Below are positions 6,110 through 18,623 of a stretch of 64,000 bases of DNA, in pieces. A program made the position numbers and the translations under genes. A model generated the notes under the pieces. The model searched no databases. It was given only the letters and a program-made list of their open reading frames with translations, and was not told where the DNA came from. This stretch comes from Fretibacterium sp. OH1220_COT-178 (GTDB lineage Bacteria > Synergistota > Synergistia > Synergistales > Aminobacteriaceae), in contig NZ_RQYL01000001.1 of NCBI RefSeq assembly GCF_003860125.1, positions 1-64,000 on the forward strand, read 5' to 3'. The stretch's first letter is position 1, and every line of letters starts with the position of its first letter.

Positions 6110-7096
6110 ATGAAGGCACGGAACTGGATTCTGGTGAGCGTCATGGTGTTTTCTCTCTTGCTGGCGGGGCGCGCCCATGCGGCGCCGGAGTACACGCTGA
6201 AGCTTGGCCATCTCGCCAACGAAAACCACTCCTGGCACAAGGGGGCGCTCAAGTTCGCCGAGGAGGTCGAGAAGCTCAGCGGCGGCCGCGTTGTTTGCCA
6301 GGTCTTCGCCAACGAGGAGCTCGGCAACGAGATGGACACCATCCAAGCCATCCACACGGGGATCGCCCACATGGTCATCACCGGGGAGTCCATGCAGAAC
6401 TGGGCCCCGAAATGTGCTCTGATCGCCGTACCCTACATGATCCGAAGCGCGGAACACCTCCAAAAGGTGCTCGATGGAGAGATCGGCGCGGAGATCGCCA
6501 AGGAGGTCGTCGAGAAGGTGAAGCTGCGCCCCGTTTCGGCCTTCGTGCGCGCGCCCCGCAACCTCACCAGCAACCGTCCCATCAAGGCGCCGGGCGAGCT
6601 GAACGGGTTCAAGCTGAGGGTGCCCAACGTCCCCCTCTTCGTGAAGGTCTGGGAGGCGCTCGGGGCAAAACCCACGCCCATGGCGTTCTCCGAGGTCTTT
6701 ACGTCCCTGCAGCAGAACATCATCGACGGACAGGAGAACCCGCTTGACCTGATCCGCAGCGCCTCGCTCTACGAGGTTCAGAAGTGCGTCAACCTTACCG
6801 AGCACGTCTACGGCTGGATCTACCTGGCCATCGGCGAAGATTTCTTCCAGAAACTGCCCGAGGACCTTCAGAAGGCGGTTCTGGAGGCCGGAAAGGCCGC
6901 TCAGGCTTACGAACACGAGCTCTTCCTGTCCAATATCGCGGAGGACGAGAGGTTCCTGAAGGAGAAGGGCATGGAGTTCGTGACCGTGGACAAGGCTGCC
7001 TTTGCGGCCCTTGCGGGCCCGGCCGTCGAGGAGTTTCTGAAGACGAAGCCCGCCGACGTGCTGGAGCTCTACAAGAAGATCGTGAGCCTTCAGTAG
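6110..7096 (+). CDS. dctP: TRAP transporter substrate-binding protein, DctP family
   Basis: Periplasmic binding protein of 328 residues with a cleavable signal peptide (hydrophobic residues 7-23, likely cut after AHA). Family features: YTLKLGHLANENHSWHKGALKFAEEVEKL at the N-terminus (start of the ligand domain), the conserved Arg in LTSNRPIKAPGELNGFKLRV that binds the substrate carboxylate, and PLDLIRSASLYEVQKCVNLTEH near residue 210. It delivers a carboxylate, probably a sugar or hydroxy acid, to the DctQM membrane pair that follows. An AAGGAGG site 10 bases upstream supports the ATG. A hairpin after the stop probably lets this gene be made in excess over dctQM. Confidence 0.95.
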   Translation: MKARNWILVSVMVFSLLLAGRAHAAPEYTLKLGHLANENHSWHKGALKFAEEVEKLSGGRVVCQVFANEELGNEMDTIQAIHTGIAHMVITGESMQNWAPKCALIAVPYMIRSAEHLQKVLDGEIGAEIAKEVVEKVKLRPVSAFVRAPRNLTSNRPIKAPGELNGFKLRVPNVPLFVKVWEALGAKPTPMAFSEVFTSLQQNIIDGQENPLDLIRSASLYEVQKCVNLTEHVYGWIYLAIGEDFFQKLPEDLQKAVLEAGKAAQAYEHELFLSNIAEDERFLKEKGMEFVTVDKAAFAALAGPAVEEFLKTKPADVLELYKKIVSLQ

Positions 7097-7108
7097 GGGT
7101 ATCGCCGC

Positions 7109-7155
7109 GACGACAACCGAAGGCGCCGCCTGCGCGCCTTCGGTTGTCGTCTTTT
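7109..7155 (+). terminator. Attenuator-like terminator between dctP and dctQ
   Basis: A stem of about 18 bp (gacgacaaccgaaggcgc and its complement) with a short loop, followed by TTTT, lies in the 85-base gap between dctP and dctQ. It looks like a partial terminator giving more binding protein than permease, as in many binding-protein operons. Confidence 0.8.
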
Positions 7156-7181
7156 ATCGAAGCCATTGGGGGAGGATGTCC

Positions 7182-7661
7182 TTGCTCAAGAAATTTTTGG
7201 AGCGAACGTTGGAATGGACCTCGTCGCTCTGCTTCGCCGGCTTGATAGCCGTGGTGCTGCTCCAGGTGTTCGCGCGGCTGTTCCTGGCCCGATCCCCGCA
7301 TTGGACCGAGGAAGCCTCCCGCTTTCTGATGCTCTACATGGTGGCCTTTGCCTCCGGGCTCGCCGCAAGGGACCGCGCCTACGTCAACGTCGATTTTCTC
7401 CTCAACATGTTCAAGGGGCGTCTCAGAGCTTTCGTCGACCTCTGCATCGACCTCCTGTCCATCGTCCTGATGGTCACCATTGCCCGGTATGGCTGGGACA
7501 ACGCGATGGTCGGGCGAATCCAGACCTCGGCCTCCCTGTCGATTCCGATGCACCTCGTCTTCATGGCCGTGGTGTTGCATGCCGTCAGTGTGGCCTTCTA
7601 CACCGCCATTCACATCATCGACGACCTGGCCGCCCTGTTCGGTCAAAGGAGGTCCTCATGA
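7182..7661 (+). CDS. dctQ: TRAP transporter small permease DctQ
   Basis: Integral membrane protein of about 159 residues with four predicted membrane helices, the hallmark of the DctQ subunit. The family motif WTEEASRFLMLYMVAFASG is present, as is the later IARYGWDNAMVGRIQTSASLSIPM. It forms the membrane complex with DctM. The nearest ATG (7176) abuts GGGGGAGG with no spacer, so TTG at 7182, six bases after GGAGG, is the better start. Its last codons overlap the dctM start (ATGA), and they contain the AAAGGAGG site used by dctM. Confidence 0.92.
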   Translation: MLKKFLERTLEWTSSLCFAGLIAVVLLQVFARLFLARSPHWTEEASRFLMLYMVAFASGLAARDRAYVNVDFLLNMFKGRLRAFVDLCIDLLSIVLMVTIARYGWDNAMVGRIQTSASLSIPMHLVFMAVVLHAVSVAFYTAIHIIDDLAALFGQRRSS

Positions 7662-8929
7662 TCACGGTGCTGTTCCTGAGCTTCATCATATTCTTGTTCA
7701 TGGGGGTCCCCGTAGCCTTCTCCCTGGGATTGTCCTCCCTGATCTATCTCGTGGGGTCGGGAATTCCCCTGATGGTCATCCCGCAGCGTATGTTCGCGGG
7801 GATCAACTCCTTCACCCTGCTCTGCATCCCGGGGTTCATCCTGGCCGGAAACCTGATGAATCGGGGCGGCATCTCCGATCGGATCATCGCCTTCGCCAAC
7901 ATTTTGGTCGGGCCCATCCGAGGCGGACTGGCCCAGGCGAACGTCGTGGCCTCCATGGTCTTCGCCGGAGTCTCCGGCACCGCCGTGGCGGACACCGCCT
8001 CCTTGGGCTCCCTGCTCATTCCCGCGATGCACAAGGAGGGCTACGATCTGGAGTTCTCCTGCGCCGTCACCGCGTCGAGCTCCTGCATCGGCCCCATCAT
8101 CCCCCCCTCCATGCCGATGATCATCGCGGGGACCCTGACGGGGCTCTCGGTCGGAAAACTCTTCCTGGCCGGGGCCGTTCCGGGCATTCTGATGGGGCTT
8201 CTGATGATGATCGTGACCGCGGTTCTCTCCGCCAGGCGCGGTTATCCCAAGGGGGAAAGGCCCTCGTGGAGGAAGTTCTGGCACGAGTTCTACGGGGGCA
8301 TCTGGGCCCTCATGATGATGGTCCTGATCTTCGCCGGCATCCTGAGCGGCTGGTTCAGCCCCACGGAGGCCGCAATCGTGGCCTGCATCTACGCCATGTT
8401 CGTCGGATTGTTCGTCTACAAGGACCTCAAGCTTCGGGACCTCCCGCAGGTGCTCAAGGAGTCGGCCATCATGTCCGCGGCCATCATCACCCTGGTGGGA
8501 CTGGCCAACGTCTTTGCCTGGATCCTGGCGAGCGAGCGCATCCCCCAGACGATCGCCCGAGCCATGATGTCCCTGACGAGCAACAAGTACGTGATCATTC
8601 TGCTCGTCAACATCTTCCTGCTCTTCGTGGGCATGTTCATGGAGACGATCGCGGCCCTGATGACGCTCTTCCCCACCCTGCTGGCGGTCCTGACCCAGGT
8701 GAGCGTCGACCCCATCCAGTGCGCCATGATCTGCGTCCTGAACCTCATCATCGGCTTGATCACCCCGCCCGTGGGAATCTGTCTCTTCGTGGCCTCCAGC
8801 ATCGGCAAGATCCCGGTGAACCGGATCGTCTCAGCAAACCTCCCCTATCTTCTGGTCTGCCTTCTGGTGCTGGCCCTGGTCTCCTTCATCCCCGCCGTCT
8901 CCACCTGGTTGCCCTCGATGCTGATGTAA
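7658..8929 (+). CDS. dctM: TRAP transporter large permease DctM
   Basis: Polytopic protein of 423 residues with about 12 membrane segments, of the DctM large-subunit family (ion transporter superfamily). Family signatures include MGVPVAFSLGLSS near the N-terminus, MVFAGVSGTAVADTASLG, SSCIGPIIPPSMPMIIAG, and LITPPVGICLFVASSIGK near the C-terminus, with the paired discontinuous-helix motifs expected for Na+-coupled transport. The start codon overlaps the dctQ stop. It is the last gene of the TRAP operon. Downstream is the convergent PgsW-like gene, with about 110 bases between them and no clear terminator. Confidence 0.95.
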   Translation: MITVLFLSFIIFLFMGVPVAFSLGLSSLIYLVGSGIPLMVIPQRMFAGINSFTLLCIPGFILAGNLMNRGGISDRIIAFANILVGPIRGGLAQANVVASMVFAGVSGTAVADTASLGSLLIPAMHKEGYDLEFSCAVTASSSCIGPIIPPSMPMIIAGTLTGLSVGKLFLAGAVPGILMGLLMMIVTAVLSARRGYPKGERPSWRKFWHEFYGGIWALMMMVLIFAGILSGWFSPTEAAIVACIYAMFVGLFVYKDLKLRDLPQVLKESAIMSAAIITLVGLANVFAWILASERIPQTIARAMMSLTSNKYVIILLVNIFLLFVGMFMETIAALMTLFPTLLAVLTQVSVDPIQCAMICVLNLIIGLITPPVGICLFVASSIGKIPVNRIVSANLPYLLVCLLVLALVSFIPAVSTWLPSMLM

Positions 8930-9043: not shown

Positions 9044-9937
9044 TCATTCCTCTCCATAAGGGATTCCGAAATCCCGACAGATCCCCTTGGCATAGAGCAG
9101 GTGCACCACCGGGACACCCCGTTCGAGATATTCGAAGATCAGCCCCCGTTCATTTCCCTGAGGGACGGATACGGGCCTTTCCAGCAACCCGTACCCCACC
9201 TCCAGCACGCGCTCGGACAGCCCCATGCTGGTCCAGGCGCCGCCGCAGTTGACGAAACAGCGGATGGGGCGCGGCGTCTCCCCGAAAATCTCAAGTCGCC
9301 TGCGGATCGCCTCGGCAAGGCCGGCCGCTTCAATTTTTTCCTCGCACCGGGAATCCAGCAGGACACGCAAGGTCGGCAGGGGATCCTCCAGCAGAACCTC
9401 CCCCATCCGGTCCCAGGCTCCGCCGGGCGCGACGGCCCGCAGGCGTGTCCGCAGCAACCCCGACGCGTTCAGGAGATCCAGCATCACGGGAAACGTGAAC
9501 TCCGGCTGCGTGCCCCCATACATGGAGGACCCGTAGGAGAAGACAAATTGCACGTGGACGCCCAACGTCTCGGCGGCGCAGAGCGCCGCCAGGCAAAAAC
9601 CCGGAAAGGACGCGCTGGCATTGACGGCCACCCAGTCCCCGGAGGCGACCCCAGCGCGGCGCAGATATTCCGCCACGGCATCCGCCATCTCGGGCCGGGC
9701 CGCGGCCCGCTTGTCGGCCAGCTCCCCCAGACTGGTCGTCAGAGGGGAGAACTCCACGCCGATCAGGCCGCTCCGGCCGGGGTCCGCCTCCGGATCGAAC
9801 AGGCCGCGCCGCTCCTTCTCCGCACATATCAGCGCCTCGCATTGCCGCATCAGATCGGAGGCCGGACCGCGCTCCAGCGCCCGCGCCGGACCTGTCGCCA
9901 GGAAAAGCCCCAGCAGGAAAACAGCTATTTTTCTCAC
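9044..9937 (-). CDS. PgsW-like poly-gamma-glutamate system protein
   Basis: Protein of about 297 residues with an N-terminal signal peptide or anchor (IAVFLLGLFLATGPARALERG). From memory it matches the 'poly-gamma-glutamate system protein' family: LIGVEFSPLTTSLGELADKR near the N-terminus, VNASASFPGFCLAALCAAE, SYGSSMYGGTQPEFTFPVML, and FVNCGGAWTSMG near the C-terminus are the family's conserved blocks. The GTG at 9937 fits the secretory leader; its ribosome site is weak. It is last in a six-gene cluster that includes a C69 dipeptidase and an M14 enzyme. No PgsB or PgsC homologue is seen nearby, so a role in polymer synthesis is not shown. Confidence 0.75.
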   Translation of the reverse strand: MRKIAVFLLGLFLATGPARALERGPASDLMRQCEALICAEKERRGLFDPEADPGRSGLIGVEFSPLTTSLGELADKRAAARPEMADAVAEYLRRAGVASGDWVAVNASASFPGFCLAALCAAETLGVHVQFVFSYGSSMYGGTQPEFTFPVMLDLLNASGLLRTRLRAVAPGGAWDRMGEVLLEDPLPTLRVLLDSRCEEKIEAAGLAEAIRRRLEIFGETPRPIRCFVNCGGAWTSMGLSERVLEVGYGLLERPVSVPQGNERGLIFEYLERGVPVVHLLYAKGICRDFGIPYGEE

Positions 9938-10035
9938 ATTCTTGGTCCCCCCGCAAGGACGCTCGGAAATTTCGTCCCCCGCCCCGGCATAAAAGACGGA
10001 GCAGCCCGTCGGCTGCTCCGTCTCGGTTGCTGCGC

Positions 10036-11667
10036 TTACTTCTTCTCCTTGGACTCCCGGCGCGGGGTGTCGTACCCCACCGCCTCGTTCCACCATTCGG
10101 GGTACGGCGTGGTCTTGAAGTTCGTGTAGCCCAGCGCGTACTTCGCAAACAGATGATCGCCCAAGGCCAGCCAGCGCTGGTTCCAGTCCACGGCGTGGGC
10201 GTAGGCGAAGTCGGTGATGAGGTCGATCGCCTCGTCCTTCTTGCCGTCCTTGAAGAGCTCCGCGGCCTTGTCCTGGATCATCCGCGTCTGAACGTAAAGG
10301 GGCATGAGCTTGGCGTCACGAGCCTTATGGATATCCTCGCGGGCGGCCTGATAGCGAAGCCCGGCGATCTCCTGCACGCGGGTGTTGACCCACCAGCCGG
10401 ACTTGGGGTCGTAGTCGTGGAAGCGGTCCCCGATGGAATAGAGCGGCGGCAGTTTCCTCATGATCGGCCACAGCGGGGTGATGTAGGTCGTGTCCGGGGC
10501 GCCGTAGCCGTACCAGCTGATGCCGCGGACCTCCTCGGGAAGGTCGCCGCGGACCTGCGCGATGTGGACGTAGCAGGTACGCATCATGTTGATGGAGCGC
10601 TCCCAGCTGGCGTCGGGGTTCTTCTCGCTCTTGTTCGCGTAGCGGATGGGGTTCCCCCAGGGACCGGCCTGGATGCCCTTGCTCAGATCGAAGGAAGTCC
10701 CCGCATACCAGTCGCCCTTGATCTCGAAGATGTCCTGGACGCTCAGTTTCTTGTCCGGCTTTATGGACATGGGGTAATCGTACTCGTCCGGCCCGAGCTT
10801 GAAGCTCTCCGGTGCGAGCAGGGAGAGGGCGCGCCACTCGCGCCGCGTCGCGTAGAGCTCGGTGTTCGGGGAGTAGACGTCCGCGGGGCTGAAGTCCTTC
10901 TCGTTCACGTCCTTCGAGTCGATGAAGCCGTTCTTCACGGCGTACTCGACGAGGTCCGGACAATACATCACGTTTTCCTTGTCCGTCAGATCGAGGTGGC
11001 GCAGGCGGGCGCGGTTGGCCGCTACAAACACATGATCGTCGGGCATGCGCCATGCCGCCCAGATCTTGTTGCCATAGAACTCGATGATCCAGACCTCGTT
11101 GCCGTCCGTCAGGGGCATGGTCTCGCCGGAATCGAACCAGCCGTGCTTCTCGACCAGTTCGCCCATGATCTTGACGGCCTCGCGCGCCGTCTTGGCTCGC
11201 TCCAGCATCACGTCCTGAACGATCCAGGCGTCGATGGAGCCGGTCGCGTCCTTCTCCATGATCTGCTGAACCTTCTTGCTGCGCTCGTCGGTGACCTCCA
11301 CCCCGTTGGTGGCCTCGCTGATCGCCACCCCCTTCTCGTTCATGAAGGAGTAGCGGGAGAAGAAGTAGCGGTAGGTGTGAGGCACCTGTGGCGTCTCGTC
11401 GATCTTCTGGGCATCCCCCTCGTAGCCGTGGGCGTCCTTGACGATATCGCGCATGGAGCCCTCCGGCCAATCGGCCTCGGGTACGATGAACAGACGGGAG
11501 TTCGCCGTACGGGAATCGTCGTTGTGCGTGATCATGGCACTGCCGTCCACGGTGGCGTCCTTCCCCACCGCGATGACGGTGCAGGCCAGTGCCGCCGTGG
11601 ACACCAGGAGAAGGAGCAGAGCGGCAACCGAAAAAACCGACAAAAATCTGGAACCTTTGCGTAGCAT
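10036..11667 (-). CDS. Secreted C69-family dipeptidase
   Basis: Protein of 543 residues of peptidase family C69 (PepD/U34), an Ntn-hydrolase. A signal peptide covers residues 1-28. The next residue is Cys29, the family nucleophile (CTVIAVGKDATVDGSAMITH), so export and exposure of the catalytic Cys coincide. Further family blocks are EKGVAISEATNG, DGNEVWIIEF and VFVAANRARL. It should hydrolyse dipeptides in the periplasm. The ATG at 11667 follows AAGGAGGG. The neighbours are an M14 aspartoacylase-like enzyme and a permease, consistent with extracytoplasmic release and uptake of amino acids. Substrate specificity cannot be read. Confidence 0.92.
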   Translation of the reverse strand: MLRKGSRFLSVFSVAALLLLLVSTAALACTVIAVGKDATVDGSAMITHNDDSRTANSRLFIVPEADWPEGSMRDIVKDAHGYEGDAQKIDETPQVPHTYRYFFSRYSFMNEKGVAISEATNGVEVTDERSKKVQQIMEKDATGSIDAWIVQDVMLERAKTAREAVKIMGELVEKHGWFDSGETMPLTDGNEVWIIEFYGNKIWAAWRMPDDHVFVAANRARLRHLDLTDKENVMYCPDLVEYAVKNGFIDSKDVNEKDFSPADVYSPNTELYATRREWRALSLLAPESFKLGPDEYDYPMSIKPDKKLSVQDIFEIKGDWYAGTSFDLSKGIQAGPWGNPIRYANKSEKNPDASWERSINMMRTCYVHIAQVRGDLPEEVRGISWYGYGAPDTTYITPLWPIMRKLPPLYSIGDRFHDYDPKSGWWVNTRVQEIAGLRYQAAREDIHKARDAKLMPLYVQTRMIQDKAAELFKDGKKDEAIDLITDFAYAHAVDWNQRWLALGDHLFAKYALGYTNFKTTPYPEWWNEAVGYDTPRRESKEKK

Positions 11668-11769
11668 ACCTTTCCCTCCTTGAATGCTCGGAAATTCTCT
11701 TGAACCCAAAAACGACCTGGGGCGCGCATTGCCTGGGGACCGCCGCAACGACCCCCTAAAAGCCGAGAA

Positions 11770-12948
11770 TCAGTTCCAATGTACCCGCTCGGGGTCCGCC
11801 TTGGCGGGATCGTGGTAAAAGGCGCCGAGGCCCTTCTCCTTCAGGTCCGTGTAATTCGGGAAGGAGACGCGAAGCTCCTTGGCGGGGTCCGCCGTGAAGT
11901 CGTTCATCTGTTTGATCATCGCCAGGGTCCCCGAGAGATGACGGCCGACTCGGTCCCACATGGGGCAGCCGACCGCGATGTCGTAGTCGCAGAACAGAAG
12001 TTCGTGCTCCGCCGCAGTCTGCAGGAACTCGTCCTTGCCCTCCATCATGAGCGCCTCGGTAATCCTCCCCGCCACGCGATCGATAAAGGGTTCCGGGGTC
12101 TCCATCAGAATGACCAGCGCATTGCTGAAATCGCCCACCTCGCGGTGCGTCAGCCCCCGAAGGCTCTTGGGAGAGGCCTCGCACTTCATGGGAAACTCCG
12201 TCGCCGAGAGCTCCATCGCGGCCATCATCGCCATGTCCTGGGAACGGTCATGCGCCACGTAGGTCGCCACGACGGGATACATCAAGGAGGCCTCGTGGGC
12301 GTCCACGAACAGGGTGATGTCCTCCTTCCGGGTCAGCTCCATGAAGGCATACGCAAGCTGCTCCGTCAGGCTGCCGTCGGGCCGCCCGGGAAAGGTACGG
12401 TTGAGGTTCCGGGCGTCCGTGTAATCCAGGTTCTGGCCCGACGGATAGTGCACGTAGGTGAAGGGGTCCGGCCACTGGTCCAGGGGCGACGAGTTGCGGT
12501 CGCCGATCCGGTAGGGTTTCCGGCCGAAGGACGTCTCCACGTGGAGGAACTTGGGATAGGCGTTGCCCAGCATCCCGAGGGTGGAGGCGCTGTAGTTGGC
12601 GTGTGGGCAGATGAAGACCCGCCCCTTCTCCACCTTGATGTTCTCCATGATGAGGTAGGCCGACAGGGCCGTGGCCGGCTCGTAGGGATGGGTCCCCCCG
12701 AGATAGAGCATCGATCCGCCCGGCACCCCGGAGTCATAGAGGTAGACGGGCGTATCCATGCCGGTCCCCTTCAGGGGCGGAAAATAATCGCTCAGCATGA
12801 ATTTTCGGGTGAAGGCCTCGGAGACGACCACCGACTCCTTCATGTTCCGCAGCTCCAGGAACTCCCTGCCGCCGAGCCACGCCAGCAGCAACGCGCAACA
12901 GAGGAGCACCGTCTGGCGCAGTTTCGCGCCCTTTTCGTAGTTCATCAT
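11770..12948 (-). CDS. Membrane-anchored succinylglutamate desuccinylase/aspartoacylase-like protein (M14)
   Basis: Protein of 392 residues with one N-terminal membrane segment (residues 12-27), so probably anchored on the periplasmic face. Zinc ligands of the M14 AstE/ASPA group are visible: GGTHPYEPATA (His87, Glu90), the Arg-containing NLNRTFPGR near 181-189, and DAHEA (His218 with Glu219). The family cleaves N-acyl amino acids or C-terminal residues. Position between a 61-residue membrane protein and a C69 dipeptidase suggests processing of peptides or N-acyl amino acids for uptake by the permease upstream. The exact reaction is unknown. Confidence 0.85.
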   Translation of the reverse strand: MMNYEKGAKLRQTVLLCCALLLAWLGGREFLELRNMKESVVVSEAFTRKFMLSDYFPPLKGTGMDTPVYLYDSGVPGGSMLYLGGTHPYEPATALSAYLIMENIKVEKGRVFICPHANYSASTLGMLGNAYPKFLHVETSFGRKPYRIGDRNSSPLDQWPDPFTYVHYPSGQNLDYTDARNLNRTFPGRPDGSLTEQLAYAFMELTRKEDITLFVDAHEASLMYPVVATYVAHDRSQDMAMMAAMELSATEFPMKCEASPKSLRGLTHREVGDFSNALVILMETPEPFIDRVAGRITEALMMEGKDEFLQTAAEHELLFCDYDIAVGCPMWDRVGRHLSGTLAMIKQMNDFTADPAKELRVSFPNYTDLKEKGLGAFYHDPAKADPERVHWN

Positions 12949-12966
12949 CGAACGCGTCCTGCCTTC

Positions 12967-13152
12967 CTACTTGATGTGCAGCGCCCGAAGCAGGAAGGGA
13001 ATGATCGTGTAGGCGTAGACGATGTCGTACACGATGCTCCTTCTCGTGGAGCGGAAGAACAGGCCGCGAATCAGGACCAGCGCGACGAGCCCCGCCAGCA
13101 CGAAGTAGATCTGATGGATAACCTCGTTCGAGAGGCGCAGAAATTCTCCCAT
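12967..13152 (-). CDS. Small membrane protein of the DUF6305/M14/C69 cluster
   Basis: A 61-residue protein with one clear membrane helix (IYFVLAGLVALVLIRGLFF), a basic segment (RSTRRS), then a second, weaker hydrophobic stretch (AYTIIPFLLRAL). I recognise no family. It sits 21 bases after the permease and 18 bases before the M14 gene in the same direction, so it is probably cotranscribed. It may be a small subunit of the permease, by analogy with DctQ or the small subunits of other transporters; that is inference from position and size. Confidence 0.7.
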   Translation of the reverse strand: MGEFLRLSNEVIHQIYFVLAGLVALVLIRGLFFRSTRRSIVYDIVYAYTIIPFLLRALHIK

Positions 13153-13173
13153 GTCCTCAGACCTCCTTGAGGA

Positions 13174-14469
13174 TCAGTAAACGATGAGCCAACGGAAATG
13201 GTTGGCGTAGACCAGCATGCCTAGGGCCACCAACCCCATGAACAGGGCGGGGATGAGGATGGCGCGCAAAAACGACAGGTAGGAGCCCGCATAGCCCGAG
13301 ACGTCGATCGCGACGCGTCCGGAGATGCGCGACGGCGGCAGACAGTCGCCCAAGGGATAGATCAGGCTCAGCGCCGTGGCGACGATGGTCACGTTGACCC
13401 CGACGGAGTTGAACAGAAAGATCAGGGGCGTCCCCAGGATGATGGCGCTGCTGTAGCTGAGGGACCCCTGGGCCAGCGGAAGCACGATCAAGGCAAAGGC
13501 ATATATCCAATCGACCGGCAGGGTGACGAAGGTGATGGCGATCAGTCCGCGCACCCCCGTGGAGGTCATGACGTTCACCAGGACCCCTACGCTGATGACC
13601 GTCGCCAGAAGCGGGAAGACCTGCTCGGAGGTCTCGATCAGCACCCGATACCAACCGCTTGGCCCCAGACGCCTGGGCGAGAGGAGCATCGCAACGGCCG
13701 TGCTGACGAGGAAGATCAGAGGAATTCCCAAGATGGGCATGAAAAACGCCGCGTACTTCGAGAGGATCAAAAGCAGAACGAAGACGGCGAGAGGAGCCGA
13801 GATGCGGAAGGCGTTCATCCCCTTGGGTGACTCCGGCAGCGAGGCCAGAATCTCCTCCTTGGGCTGGGGCTTTCCGCCACGCAGCAGATAGAAAACGGTG
13901 AAGACGGTGATCAATGCTATCGGAGCCAGAAGCGGCACGTCAAAACCCACGTAGGGCATGTTGGCCTGCGCGCACATCAGCATGACCCACAGGTTGATCG
14001 GGGGGGCGACGGCGGCCAGCATCGACGTCACGTAGATGAAGGCGACGATGCGCACGTCTCGGATCCCCATGAAGCGCAGGACCGTCGCGACCATCCCGCC
14101 CACGACGAACATGGACACGCTCCCCGCCCCCGTGAGGGCCCCCGGGATCAGCATGATCAGGGCCAGGAGGAAGAAAAGCACCCATTTTCTGTCGTAAAAG
14201 CGGTCGACCATCCCGCGAACGAGCGCGTCCATCGCCCCCGTGGCGGAATAGAAGTTGATGAAGATGGAGGCGGTCAAAAAGGTGAAGGCCACGTCGAAGT
14301 AGGTGAAGGTCCCCTCGACGAGCAGTCGGACCGGAAATCCCAATCCTCCGACTAGAGCCCCCACCACCGCGGTGACCACCATCGAGAGCTCAGGGGACTT
14401 CAGCACCCAGCTCGCCAGCGCAAAGGTCGCGACCATGGCGGCCAGGATAAACGTCGTCTCGGCGTACAA
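13174..14469 (-). CDS. Ion-transporter-superfamily permease (DctM/DcuC-like)
   Basis: Polytopic protein of 431 residues with about 11-12 membrane segments. The architecture is that of the ion transporter superfamily, with two similar halves: TGAGSVSMFVVGGMVATVL and AAVAPPINLWVMLMCAQ in the first, ATVISVGVLVNVMTSTGVRG and YSSAIILGTPLIFLFNSVG in the second. The AAVAPPINL phrase resembles the PPS/PP hairpin motif of DctM. A polar loop lies at about residues 205-225. It probably moves a carboxylate or amino-acid derivative with Na+ or H+. The start is TTG at 14469. It follows the DUF6305-like secreted protein by 17 bases, an arrangement like a binding protein plus permease. Confidence 0.75.
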   Translation of the reverse strand: MYAETTFILAAMVATFALASWVLKSPELSMVVTAVVGALVGGLGFPVRLLVEGTFTYFDVAFTFLTASIFINFYSATGAMDALVRGMVDRFYDRKWVLFFLLALIMLIPGALTGAGSVSMFVVGGMVATVLRFMGIRDVRIVAFIYVTSMLAAVAPPINLWVMLMCAQANMPYVGFDVPLLAPIALITVFTVFYLLRGGKPQPKEEILASLPESPKGMNAFRISAPLAVFVLLLILSKYAAFFMPILGIPLIFLVSTAVAMLLSPRRLGPSGWYRVLIETSEQVFPLLATVISVGVLVNVMTSTGVRGLIAITFVTLPVDWIYAFALIVLPLAQGSLSYSSAIILGTPLIFLFNSVGVNVTIVATALSLIYPLGDCLPPSRISGRVAIDVSGYAGSYLSFLRAILIPALFMGLVALGMLVYANHFRWLIVY

Positions 14470-14486
14470 AGGGATGCCCCCGTTTC

Positions 14487-15071
14487 CTACCGGACGTACA
14501 TCGCCTTGGCAAAAGCGTTGAGGTCCATGGCGCTGTCCAGGTAGGTGATGGGAATCTTATGCTCCTCGGCGAATTTCGTGAACTTGCCGTCCGCGTCCCC
14601 CTCCTTGTTGACGACGATGTGATCCGCCCCCGGCAGAATCGCATCGATGGACCGCTCATCCGCACTGCCGGGCTTGCCGCGTCGGGCCTTGCCCTCGATA
14701 TGGGCGGCGATCACCTGGATTTTCAGCTCCTTGGCCTTGGCCATCATGGCGTTCAGCCGCTCGATCTCCTGGTCGATGGTGATGCCGGAGGCACCGAGCC
14801 CCTTGGCCGACGAACCGATGACGACGAGCATGGTCTTGAACCCGCCCTTTTCCAGATCCTCCGGCTTGGGCTCCGCATTGTAGGTCATCTCCTTGACCGC
14901 CTCGGAACGGGTCACCAAAAGACGCCCCATCTTCCCCCCGGGACCCTGGCCCGCGTTGGTGATCAGCAGCGGCTGCTCGCCCTTCGGAGCCTCCGCTCCG
15001 GTCACGGCGGCAAAAGCCAACGAGCCCGCAGCCAAGACCAGCAAAAAGGACAGTACGGCGATTCTCTTCAT
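14487..15071 (-). CDS. DUF6305-like secreted protein
   Basis: Protein of 194 residues with a Sec signal peptide (residues 4-21, cut after AFA). The mature part starts with AEAPKGEQPLLITNAGQGPGG, then MLVVIGSSAKGLGASGI, and IDAILPGADHIVVNKEGD. From memory this resembles the DUF6305 family. The fold looks like alternating beta strands and helices with glycine loops, as in small periplasmic binding or P-loop-like folds. It is first in the cluster and so may be the ligand-binding or recruiting component for the permease that follows. Function not established. Confidence 0.75.
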   Translation of the reverse strand: MKRIAVLSFLLVLAAGSLAFAAVTGAEAPKGEQPLLITNAGQGPGGKMGRLLVTRSEAVKEMTYNAEPKPEDLEKGGFKTMLVVIGSSAKGLGASGITIDQEIERLNAMMAKAKELKIQVIAAHIEGKARRGKPGSADERSIDAILPGADHIVVNKEGDADGKFTKFAEEHKIPITYLDSAMDLNAFAKAMYVR

Positions 15072-15310: not shown

Positions 15311-15348
15311 ACACAAAAGCTCCCCGGTCTATCGCCGGAGAGCTTTGT
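15311..15348 (-). terminator. Terminator hairpin after the buk-ptb-buk operon
   Basis: Stem acaaagctctccgg paired with ccggggagcttttgt around a short loop, about 40 bases after the stop of the second butyrate kinase. The T-run is poor, but the stem is long. Confidence 0.6.
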
Positions 15349-15389
15349 ACAAACTGGACGAAGGAGAGGACACAAGTTCAAAAGAAGCG

Positions 15390-16457
15390 TCAGTCGTAGT
15401 CCAGCGCGCTCTCCTCCCCGTTGAGAACCCGCAGGGCCCCCTCGGCCAAGGCCTGCATCTCGTCCTCGCCGGGATAGCGCAGGATGCGAGCGATAAAGCC
15501 GACTCGAGCCGTCAGGGCCTCGCACAACCGATCGCTGTACGCCAAACCGCCCGTCAGGACGATCGCGTCGACGGATCCCTTCAGCACGGCGGAGCAGGCT
15601 CCGATCTCCTTGGCGATCTGGAGGCACAGGGCATCGAAGACCAGTACGGCCTTCGCATCTCCGGAGGAGACACGCTTCTCCACCTCCCGGAGGTCGTTGG
15701 TCCCCAAATGCGCCACAAGGCCGCCCCTCCCGCAGATCATCCGCTGCACCTCGGTCAGTGTATGCCGGCCGCTGAAACAAAGTGAGGCCAGAGCACCGAC
15801 CGGAAGGCTTCCCGATCGCTCGGGGGACATGGGCCCCTCGCCATCCAGGGCGTTGTTGACGTCGATCACCCGTCCCTTGAGGTGCGCTCCGACGGAGACC
15901 CCGCCGCCCATGTGCGCCACGACCAGATTGCAGTCCGCCAAGGTCTTGCCCAGTTCCGCCGCTGCACGGCGCGCCACGGCCTTCTGGTTCAGGGCGTGAA
16001 AGATCGAAATCCTCGGGATCTCGGGAAGCCCGGAGACCCGTGCCTCGTCGGCCAGCTCGTCCACGACGACAGGATCGACGATAAAGGCCGGGACATCGCC
16101 GGCGGCCGCTGCAAATCGTACGGCCAGGGCGGCTCCCAGGTTGCTGGCATGAGAGCCGTAGGCCATGCTTTTCAGATCCTGAAGCATCCGAGCCCCCACC
16201 CGATAGGTTCCGCCCGGAACCGGCTTGAGGAGGCCTCCGCGCCCCACGACCGCAGAGAAGGAGGACGCCTCGATGCCCTTCTCCTCGAGAATCTGCGCTA
16301 TGCGTTCATAACGAAATCCCTCTTGCTCCGCCACCGAGGCAAACGGCTCGAGCTCGGAAGCGTCGTAGCGCTGCGTCTCCGTCCAAAGACAACGGGCCCC
16401 CTCGAAGAGGGCGATCTTCGTGCTGGTGGAACCGGGATTGATGACAAAAATTTTCAT
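15390..16457 (-). CDS. buk: Butyrate kinase (copy 1)
   Basis: Protein of 355 residues of the acetate/butyrate kinase family (ASKHA fold). The N-terminal phosphate loop NPGSTSTKIALF is intact. Other family blocks are VVGRGGLLKPVPGGTY, FIVDPVVVDEL, HALNQKAVARRAA, VVAHMGGGVSVGAHLKGRV, and VDAIVLTGGLAYS. It makes ATP and a carboxylate from butyryl phosphate, or from branched-chain acyl phosphates in amino-acid fermenters. The ATG at 16457, eight bases after AAGGGG, is preferred to a GTG three codons upstream. It is last in the operon buk2-ptb-buk1. Confidence 0.94.
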   Translation of the reverse strand: MKIFVINPGSTSTKIALFEGARCLWTETQRYDASELEPFASVAEQEGFRYERIAQILEEKGIEASSFSAVVGRGGLLKPVPGGTYRVGARMLQDLKSMAYGSHASNLGAALAVRFAAAAGDVPAFIVDPVVVDELADEARVSGLPEIPRISIFHALNQKAVARRAAAELGKTLADCNLVVAHMGGGVSVGAHLKGRVIDVNNALDGEGPMSPERSGSLPVGALASLCFSGRHTLTEVQRMICGRGGLVAHLGTNDLREVEKRVSSGDAKAVLVFDALCLQIAKEIGACSAVLKGSVDAIVLTGGLAYSDRLCEALTARVGFIARILRYPGEDEMQALAEGALRVLNGEESALDYD

Positions 16458-16539
16458 CGCAACCACCCCTTCCGTGAAAAAGGGCCCCGGCGGCGGGGAC
16501 GGGCAAAACGGATGATGCCGGTCGAGGCCCTTGGTTCGA

Positions 16540-17466
16540 TCAGCCCGCGTGATGGGCCATCATGACGGCTGCGGCGATGGAGAGCATCTTGGCGCGCGGA
16601 GAGTCCGCGCGGCTCGTCAGGATGACCGGGGCCGCAGCGCCGACGATGATTCCCGCCGTCTCGTTCTTGGAGAAGTAGACGATCGCCTTCGCCAGCATAT
16701 TCCCGGCGTCGATGTGCGGGACCAGCAGGACATCCGCATGTCCCGCCACCGGGGAGGAGATCTTCTTGATCTTCGCCGCCTCCTCGTTGATGGCGTTGTC
16801 CAGGGCCAGGGGACCGTCCACGACGCAGTTCCTGATCTGCCCGCGCTGGTTCATCTGAACGAGGGCACAGGCATCCAGCGTGCAGGGCATGTCCGGATTG
16901 ACCATCTCGACCGCCGCAAGACAGGCGACCTTCGGGCACTCGACGCCCAGGGCCCGGGCGAAGTTCACGGTGTTCTGCAGGATGTCGGCCTTCTGCTTCA
17001 GATCGGGGTAGGTGTTGAACGCCGCATCGGCGATGAAGAGGATGCGGTCGTATCCCTCGATCTGATGGAAGTAGCAGTGGGAGATGACCTTGCCGCTCCG
17101 GAGCCCGACCTCCTTGTTCAGCATCCCGCGCAGAAAATGGTCGGTGTGCAGCTGCCCCTTCATGTAGATGTCCGCGCGTTTGGAGGAGACCTCCGCCACG
17201 GCGACCAGGCCGCATTTGGCCTCGCTCCTCTCGTCGATGACCGTGTAGTCCTTCTCCGAAGCTCCGGCCTGAGCGATGCAGGCCTTGACCTTATCCACGT
17301 TTCCGACCAGGGTCGCATCGACGAGCCCGGCCTTCCGGGCCTCCTCGATGGCGGATATCAGGCCCGCATCCTCCGCCATGGCGACGGAAATGCGCTTTCT
17401 TCCCTTGCTCGCGCAGAGCTTCTTGGCCTCCTCGATCATCTGAGACAACGAACGAATTTGTTCCAT
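16540..17466 (-). CDS. ptb: Phosphate butyryltransferase
   Basis: Protein of 308 residues of the phosphate acetyl/butyryltransferase family. Recognisable segments are SVAMAEDAGLISAIEEARKAG, ADIYMKGQLHTDHFLRGML, RILFIADAAFNTYPDL, and at the C-terminus LLVPHIDAGNMLAKAIVYF and GAAAPVILTSRADS. It converts butyryl-CoA or a branched acyl-CoA with phosphate to the acyl phosphate, which Buk turns into ATP and acid. It lies between two butyrate kinase genes on the same strand, 82 bases upstream of copy 1. A 16-base GC palindrome lies at 17511-17526 just before it. Confidence 0.94.
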   Translation of the reverse strand: MEQIRSLSQMIEEAKKLCASKGRKRISVAMAEDAGLISAIEEARKAGLVDATLVGNVDKVKACIAQAGASEKDYTVIDERSEAKCGLVAVAEVSSKRADIYMKGQLHTDHFLRGMLNKEVGLRSGKVISHCYFHQIEGYDRILFIADAAFNTYPDLKQKADILQNTVNFARALGVECPKVACLAAVEMVNPDMPCTLDACALVQMNQRGQIRNCVVDGPLALDNAINEEAAKIKKISSPVAGHADVLLVPHIDAGNMLAKAIVYFSKNETAGIIVGAAAPVILTSRADSPRAKMLSIAAAVMMAHHAG

Positions 17467-17540
17467 AGCCGAAAAACCTCCCAGTTTTGTGATAGTTTGA
17501 AGCCTTTATGCGGCCGGGCCCGGCCGACGCGCAATCCCCT

Positions 17541-18623
17541 TTAACGGATGACGCTCGACGCGTAGTCCCGCGCCGTTTCCTCGCCCCTCAGGACCCGAAG
17601 TCCTCCCTGAGCCAGAGCCAGAAGCTCGTCCTCCCCAGGATAGACCAGGCAGGGGGCGATCCATTGCACCCGTTCCTGGAGCATTCGGATGAAGCCGCCA
17701 TCGTTAGCGATCCCGCCCGTAAAAACGATGGCGTCAACGGATTCCCCGATCGAGACGGCCTGCGCCCCGATCTCCTTGGCAATCTGCCAGACCATCGCCC
17801 TGCGGTACAACGCAGCCTCTTCGTCCCCCGCCTCGACGCGTCGGTTGACCTCCAGCATGTCGTTCGTCCCAACGTAGGCGCGGAGCCCTCCACCGGAGGT
17901 CAGCTTGCGGCGAACCTCCCCCTCGCTGTAGCGCCCGCTGAAGCAGAGCCGCACGAAATCCCCCACCGGCAGCCCCCCGACGCGATCCAGCGAAAAGGGC
18001 CCCCACTCGTTGGCACTGTTCACATCGACGGCACGTCCCTTGCGGTGGGCCACCACGCTCACTCCGCCTCCGAGGTGAGCCACCACGCAGTTGACGGCAT
18101 CCCAAGGCCTTCCGAGCTCGCGCGCCGCACGCCGGACCATCGCCTTGACGTTGAGCGCATGTAGAAAGGAGGGCTTGACCAGCTCGGGAAGCCCGGTCAC
18201 CTTCGCCTCGGGCATCATCTCGTCGACGGAGACGGGGTCGACGATGAAGGCGGGGGCGCCCCACGACTCGGCCAGGGCAAAGGCAAGGACGCCCCCGAGG
18301 TTCGAGGGATGATCCCAAGGTCGGCCAAGCCTCAGACGCTGGACCAGGGAAGGGTCGACCCGATAAGTTCCCCCGGGCACGGGATCGATGATCCCCCCGC
18401 GCCCCACCACCGCGTCCAGGTGAACGTCCTCTCCATCGTGGGCGGCGAGGGCCGAACGGATGTGTTGCATGCGAAAATCGAACTGGTCCGCGACCGCGCC
18501 AAAAATCGCCAGCTCCTCCATGGAATGCCGCAGCGTGTCCTTCCACACGCACACCTCCCCCTCGAATCGGGCCAGCTTAGTGCTGGTGGAACCGGGGTTG
18601 ATCGTCAAAATGGAGAACGTCAT
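17541..18623 (-). CDS. buk: Butyrate kinase (copy 2)
   Basis: Protein of 360 residues, a second butyrate kinase clearly diverged from copy 1. It keeps NPGSTSTKLARF at the N-terminus, VVGRGGIIDPVPGGTYRV, FIVDPVSVDEM, HALNVKAMVRRAA, VVAHLGGGVSVVAHRKGRA, and VDAIVFTGGIAND. By eye the two copies share perhaps half of their residues, so this is an old duplication or separate acquisition. One copy may prefer branched-chain acyl phosphates from valine, leucine and isoleucine oxidation. It is the first gene of the operon, with a class IV aminotransferase 73 bases upstream. Confidence 0.94.
   Translation of the reverse strand: MTFSILTINPGSTSTKLARFEGEVCVWKDTLRHSMEELAIFGAVADQFDFRMQHIRSALAAHDGEDVHLDAVVGRGGIIDPVPGGTYRVDPSLVQRLRLGRPWDHPSNLGGVLAFALAESWGAPAFIVDPVSVDEMMPEAKVTGLPELVKPSFLHALNVKAMVRRAARELGRPWDAVNCVVAHLGGGVSVVAHRKGRAVDVNSANEWGPFSLDRVGGLPVGDFVRLCFSGRYSEGEVRRKLTSGGGLRAYVGTNDMLEVNRRVEAGDEEAALYRRAMVWQIAKEIGAQAVSIGESVDAIVFTGGIANDGGFIRMLQERVQWIAPCLVYPGEDELLALAQGGLRVLRGEETARDYASSVIR

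Follow-up and report, generated by a model that had tools for sequence, protein, structure and literature searches.

The window, i.e., the whole stretch of 64,000 nucleotides that was analyzed, belongs to a Synergistota genome of ~2.86 Mb (G000). It carries six minus-strand open reading frames between 9044 and 15071, all of which were confirmed where an earlier note on this DNA had placed them. The intergenic gaps from the DUF6305 gene to the PgsW-family gene were ~17, 21, 18, 102, and 98 nt. The genes and hairpins are listed below from the upstream end of the cluster.

15312..15349, minus strand: terminator-like hairpin that follows the butyrate kinase gene upstream of the cluster (-22.3 kcal/mol, z -3.5)
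14487..15071, minus strand: exported DUF6305 protein, 194 aa; candidate binding protein
13174..14469, minus strand: permease of 431 aa with a TTG start, predicted to be a DctM-like (TRAP) member of the ion transporter superfamily
12967..13152, minus strand: tiny membrane protein of 61 aa with two helices, a candidate subunit of the transporter
11770..12948, minus strand: membrane-anchored M14 (AstE/AspA-like) zinc hydrolase, 392 aa
10036..11667, minus strand: exported C69-family Ntn hydrolase, 543 aa, in place of gamma-glutamyltransferase (GGT)
9993..10024, minus strand: terminator-like hairpin between the C69 and PgsW genes (-32.2 kcal/mol, z -8.4)
9044..9937, minus strand: exported PgsW-family (TIGR04332) protein, ~297 aa, GTG start

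In the hairpin between the C69 and PgsW genes, a stem of ~14 bp leads into a short run of T, and at least 11 of 12 related loci have a hairpin in the equivalent position. It is kept across genera although its sequence varies. The hairpin at 15312–15349 parts the cluster from the upstream butyrate kinase genes and marks the upper boundary of the unit, and the two terminator-like hairpins bracket the five genes for DUF6305, the permease, the tiny protein, M14, and C69 (15071–10036, minus strand). The hairpins were accepted because of their folding energies and recurrence and not because of a simple terminator consensus scan, which was no stronger than its shuffles. Given this recurrence before PgsW, the PgsW gene is probably a separate or read-through unit, and the natural unit probably comprises five genes with PgsW as a conserved neighbor. 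The earlier treatment of the six genes as one unit thus does not quite hold, and one transcript spanning all six genes was dropped as the default assumption. A longer PgsW reading frame (350 aa from 10096) overlaps the C69 gene.

Upstream on the same strand (15390–18623), two butyrate kinase genes stand in a row with a phosphate butyryltransferase gene between them. A TRAP set consisting of a periplasmic protein and a small and a large membrane subunit was recognized by eye at 6110–8929; it is encoded on the plus strand and runs toward the cluster.

Conservation of the module

The gene neighborhoods of 124 full-length permeases from 188 Synergistota genomes were compared. M14 was located directly downstream of the permease on the same strand in 121 of the 124 loci, at a distance of nearly always ~170–330 bp, which leaves room for the tiny gene. 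DUF6305 was located upstream of the permease in 113 loci (adjacent in 107) and just after M14 in five. A tiny reading frame of 47–63 aa was present in all 98 testable loci, ten other loci being too short. The encoded proteins have two hydrophobic segments and share the pattern P-x-x-LR-x-L-x-x-K at the C-terminus, and the dN/dS values among close relatives were 0.09–0.35; the gene is therefore real, although the 61-aa protein of the window matched no Pfam family. Thus, DUF6305-permease-tiny-M14 is a near-invariant four-gene module, and its arrangement is far beyond chance.

The module also occurs outside Synergistota. A scan of GTDB genomes with a GGT-type DUF6305 query yielded 44 DUF6305 loci in Bacillota, Spirochaetota, Atribacterota, and Thermodesulfobacteriota and in single bins labeled Actinomycetota, Acidobacteria, and Comamonadaceae; with such a query, C69-type modules are under-sampled. 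The Actinomycetota-labeled bin may be mislabeled, as its permease groups with Atribacterota in the tree. A permease was near DUF6305 in 40 of the 44 loci, and these 40 were accompanied by M14 (38), the tiny gene (37), GGT (37), and at least two of PgsB, PgsC, and PgsW (17). In permease-anchored searches, the permease was rare in the Spirochaetota and Clostridia samples (a handful of genomes each). All eight further permease loci, from these samples and from genomes in which only DUF6305 had been found, carried M14. The spirochaete sample contained two C69-type modules (L256 and L258), one of which (L256) had the complete order DUF6305-permease-tiny-M14-C69-PgsB-PgsC-PgsW. The expectation in the earlier note that the families keep together was therefore strongly borne out in Synergistota and in other phyla, and the module is apparently a widely conserved, undescribed bacterial system.

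Several loci deviated in gene number. Two or three tandem DUF6305 genes were found in L185, L187, L191, L198, and L137, and in the Bacillota loci tandem DUF6305 genes precede one permease, which would suit a transporter supplied by more than one binding protein. In L221, a window-type module (G038, ~1495711–1497086), M14 was matched in two separate pieces, perhaps owing to a frameshift or a sequencing error. Another locus of the window's genome (L125, contig C24, ~33–37 kb) consists of GGT followed by two M14 paralogues, lacking the permease, DUF6305, and the tiny gene; similar M14 pairs were found in L153 and L186.

Linkage to poly-gamma-glutamate genes

Poly-gamma-glutamate (PGA) is formed as a capsule or a released polymer. 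The canonical locus of the module (L121) has the order DUF6305-permease-tiny-M14-GGT-PgsB-PgsC-PgsW; its PgsB and PgsC do not reach the NCBIfam equivalog cut-offs, and PgsC passes that of Pfam. Among the 188 Synergistota genomes, 63 had both the permease and PgsC, eight the permease only, four PgsC only, and 113 neither (Fisher value of ~1e-35, with kinship ignored). As the eight permease-only and four PgsC-only genomes indicate, neither strictly requires the other. Of the 61 genomes with both, 37 had PgsC no more than 12 kb away from a module. At least two modules were present in 33 genomes, 29 of which had one PgsC.

Family searches against Pfam and NCBIfam detected neither PgsB nor PgsC in the window locus. 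The absence of these genes, as described in the earlier note, is true of the window copy only: PgsB-PgsC-PgsW lies beside a second module of the same genome on contig C15, and an organism lacking PgsB and PgsC was thus rejected. A third module, of the GGT type, is on contig C12. The 16 window-type (C69) loci that were read all contained the permease, M14, and C69, and PgsW followed C69 directly in 12 of them. In five relatives (G107, G108, G109, G110, and G113), PgsB-PgsC-PgsW lies directly upstream of the window-type cluster. The window copy is therefore the C69-type version of the module, which relatives keep beside PgsB-PgsC-PgsW.

The PgsW-family protein matched TIGR04332 ("poly-gamma-glutamate system protein") with an E-value of 1.7e-84 and 283.7 bits against a cut-off of 100, and no solved relative was found for it by sequence. 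In two loci (L261 and L262 of genomes G193 and G194), the order is GGT-PgsW-permease-tiny-M14 and DUF6305 is elsewhere in the genome. PgsW occupies the usual place of DUF6305 there and may stand in for it.

Putative transporter components and hydrolases

By itself, the window permease had no significant match in Pfam or NCBIfam. Pfam DctM was matched by 32 of 44 members of its family (best 2.1e-13), with the window protein below the cut-off (E 0.2). Its predicted model (pLDDT 90) was best matched, among transporters of known function, by the TRAP proteins IseQM (TMq 0.73) and SiaQM (0.69/0.70), followed by other members of the ion transporter superfamily. A permease profile gave no match to the sequences of solved structures; in that comparison, the kinship is seen by predicted fold only. 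The permease has the features of a large subunit of the DctM type, with 12 TM helices and membership in the ion transporter superfamily, and is TRAP/DctM-like by predicted fold. The tiny protein encoded next to it is a candidate transporter subunit.

DUF6305 matched Pfam PF19823 (1.5e-46) and was modeled as a single alpha/beta domain (pLDDT 93). No close solved relative of this fold was found (TM ~0.33–0.44 to SGNH-type and other alpha/beta proteins), and it matched no known binding-protein fold and is not a TRAP-type binding protein. Its profile gave nothing beyond short matches of a chance-like kind. No enzyme activity was assigned to it because of the low fold matches, and we regard it as a candidate binding protein.

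The M14 protein has an N-terminal hydrophobic anchor and matched Pfam AstE_AspA_cat (5e-6). Its zinc site and catalytic glutamate are kept, with H87, E90, and H218 in 20 of 20 sequences and E283 in 19. The nearest solved relatives were DoeB and aspartoacylase-like amidohydrolases, and there was a weak match (4e-4) to the secreted protein 4wcm, which we take to be the cell-wall carboxypeptidase Csd4. The C69 protein matched Pfam C69 (9e-68) and was just below the cut-off of the NCBIfam equivalog NF033678. Its signal peptide ends directly before a cysteine (ALA|C) in the window and its relatives, and in most C69 copies read, a cysteine, as expected for an N-terminal nucleophile, comes straight after an AxA-type signal-peptide end. 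The substrates usually associated with C69 enzymes are ordinary dipeptides. C69 and GGT both belong to the Ntn hydrolases, and both are exported.

In a maximum-likelihood tree of 95 permeases, all 20 C69-associated permeases were on one side of a single branch and all GGT-associated permeases on the other (support 100/100). The replacement of GGT by C69 is thus confined to a single permease clade, the one to which the window permease belongs. A hydrolase type that changes with the permease clade is as expected if the permease carries the product of the hydrolase.

Proposed function and known systems

We consider it somewhat more likely than not (roughly 55%) that the module is a TRAP-like system for secondary uptake, that exported gamma-glutamyl hydrolases supply it, and that it is tied to PGA turnover or metabolism. 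In this system, we infer the substrate, its gamma-glutamyl hydrolysis, the binding, the direction of transport, and the coupling ion. Outside the cytoplasmic membrane, the anchored M14 and the exported Ntn hydrolase (C69 in the window and GGT in most relatives) would cleave gamma-glutamyl peptides or polymer. A product of this cleavage would be captured by DUF6305 and imported by the DctM-like permease together with the tiny two-helix protein, with Na+ or H+ as the probable driving ion. To our knowledge, all TRAP members are importers, and the TRAP M-like predicted fold of the permease was therefore counted for uptake. The earlier suggestion of exported hydrolases working with the permease remains the best reading, in a more specific form than proposed: the core is DUF6305-permease-tiny-M14 plus one Ntn hydrolase (GGT or C69) and is tied to PGA synthesis genes.

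The tight linkage to synthesis genes also fits polymer finishing or anchoring. The module might serve the making and finishing of a PGA capsule. GGT or C69 and M14 would then trim, release, or anchor the polymer in the manner of CapD, and export, counter-ion movement, or recycling of leaving groups as the polymer is assembled would fall to the permease and DUF6305. The module shares genomes, and often the locus, with PgsB-PgsC-PgsW, and no PgsA-like subunit was recognized among the neighbors examined, so other partners may fill that role. Some genomes, such as G026, have the module without PgsC, however, and the predicted permease fold is that of TRAP/ion-transporter-type small-molecule carriers. 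The single PgsC of most multi-module genomes (29 of 33) fits divergent uptake better than a single assembly machine, and we consider a role in finishing rather unlikely. The same doubt applies to a window copy that has left PGA and become a general peptide or N-acyl amino-acid system, in which C69 would cut dipeptides, M14 would deacylate, and the permease would import amino acids for fermentation. As C69 is known for dipeptides and M14 is closest to N-acyl amino-acid deacylases (AstE/AspA/DoeB), the substrate may not be gamma-glutamyl; the window locus is without PgsB and PgsC, and the upstream butyrate kinase and phosphotransbutyrylase genes would suit amino-acid fermentation. Against such a departure stand the five relatives with the same cluster directly after PgsB-PgsC-PgsW, the spirochaete with C69 and these genes in one row, and the PgsW family after C69 in most window-type loci.

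A chance neighborhood of unrelated exported hydrolases and a permease is very improbable. The strong hairpin that sets PgsW apart and the M14/GGT pair without a permease (L125) would be in keeping with it, but the order is near-invariant in several phyla, including in the permease-anchored searches of Spirochaetota and Clostridia. Chance is contradicted by synteny for the four-gene core and possible only for PgsW at the window locus.

In open-licence full texts, we found no paper naming DUF6305, nothing relevant on PgsW (for which an NCBIfam model exists), and no description of the permease-tiny-M14 set in the literature on PGA, TRAP, and Synergistota. The module is a concrete candidate for how PGA producers take polymer material back, and it recurs in several phyla. 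If the uptake reading is true, it would give functions to DUF6305, an unnamed permease family, and a tiny membrane protein easily missed by annotation, and would indicate how much of the TRAP design can be dispensed with.

PGA capsule genes were already reported to be abundant in Synergistetes, and the models given in the same paper include a GGT-type enzyme, CapD, which is a precedent for GGT in the module (PMC5542703). The canonical module loci resemble the PgsBCA/CapBCADE loci in holding PgsB, PgsC, PgsW, and GGT. The PgsBCA/CapBCADE model differs in having CapA/CapE and CapD and in lacking the permease, DUF6305, the tiny protein, and M14, and the window copy differs from it in lacking PgsB and PgsC. 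A paper on PGA in Cloacimonadota describes CapB-CapC-CapA only. Cleavage of gamma-glutamyl bonds by a zinc enzyme has a precedent in the phage PGA hydrolase PghP, a metallopeptidase with kinship to carboxypeptidase A (PMC4497714). The cluster M14 is likewise a zinc hydrolase, but it is AstE/AspA-like, membrane-anchored, and without a match to the PghP family in Pfam.

Among transporters, the tripartite tricarboxylate transporters (TctABC, TTT) share the three-part logic of secondary uptake. The TctA, TctB, and TctC families had no matches in the cluster (Pfam/NCBIfam), and the permease instead matches TRAP M subunits. The module resembles TRAP systems (DctPQM, SiaPQM, and IseQM) in that its permease has the same predicted fold, with distant sequence kinship to DctM, and in that genes for a secreted protein and a small membrane protein accompany the permease gene. 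TRAP systems are defined by a DctP or TAXI binding protein and a 4-TM DctQ (PMC5812351). Unlike these, the module has DUF6305, with another single-domain fold, in place of the binding protein and the 47–63-aa two-helix protein in place of DctQ; the predicted transporter is thus not TRAP by definition and is TRAP-like by fold and logic. More tentatively, it might, next to TRAP and TTT, represent a third type of secondary transporter that depends on a binding protein, with DUF6305 as a new binding-protein class, a DctM-like permease, and a minimal two-helix partner. Together with M14 and GGT or C69, it would make PGA a recyclable extracellular glutamate store that is made, cut, and taken back.
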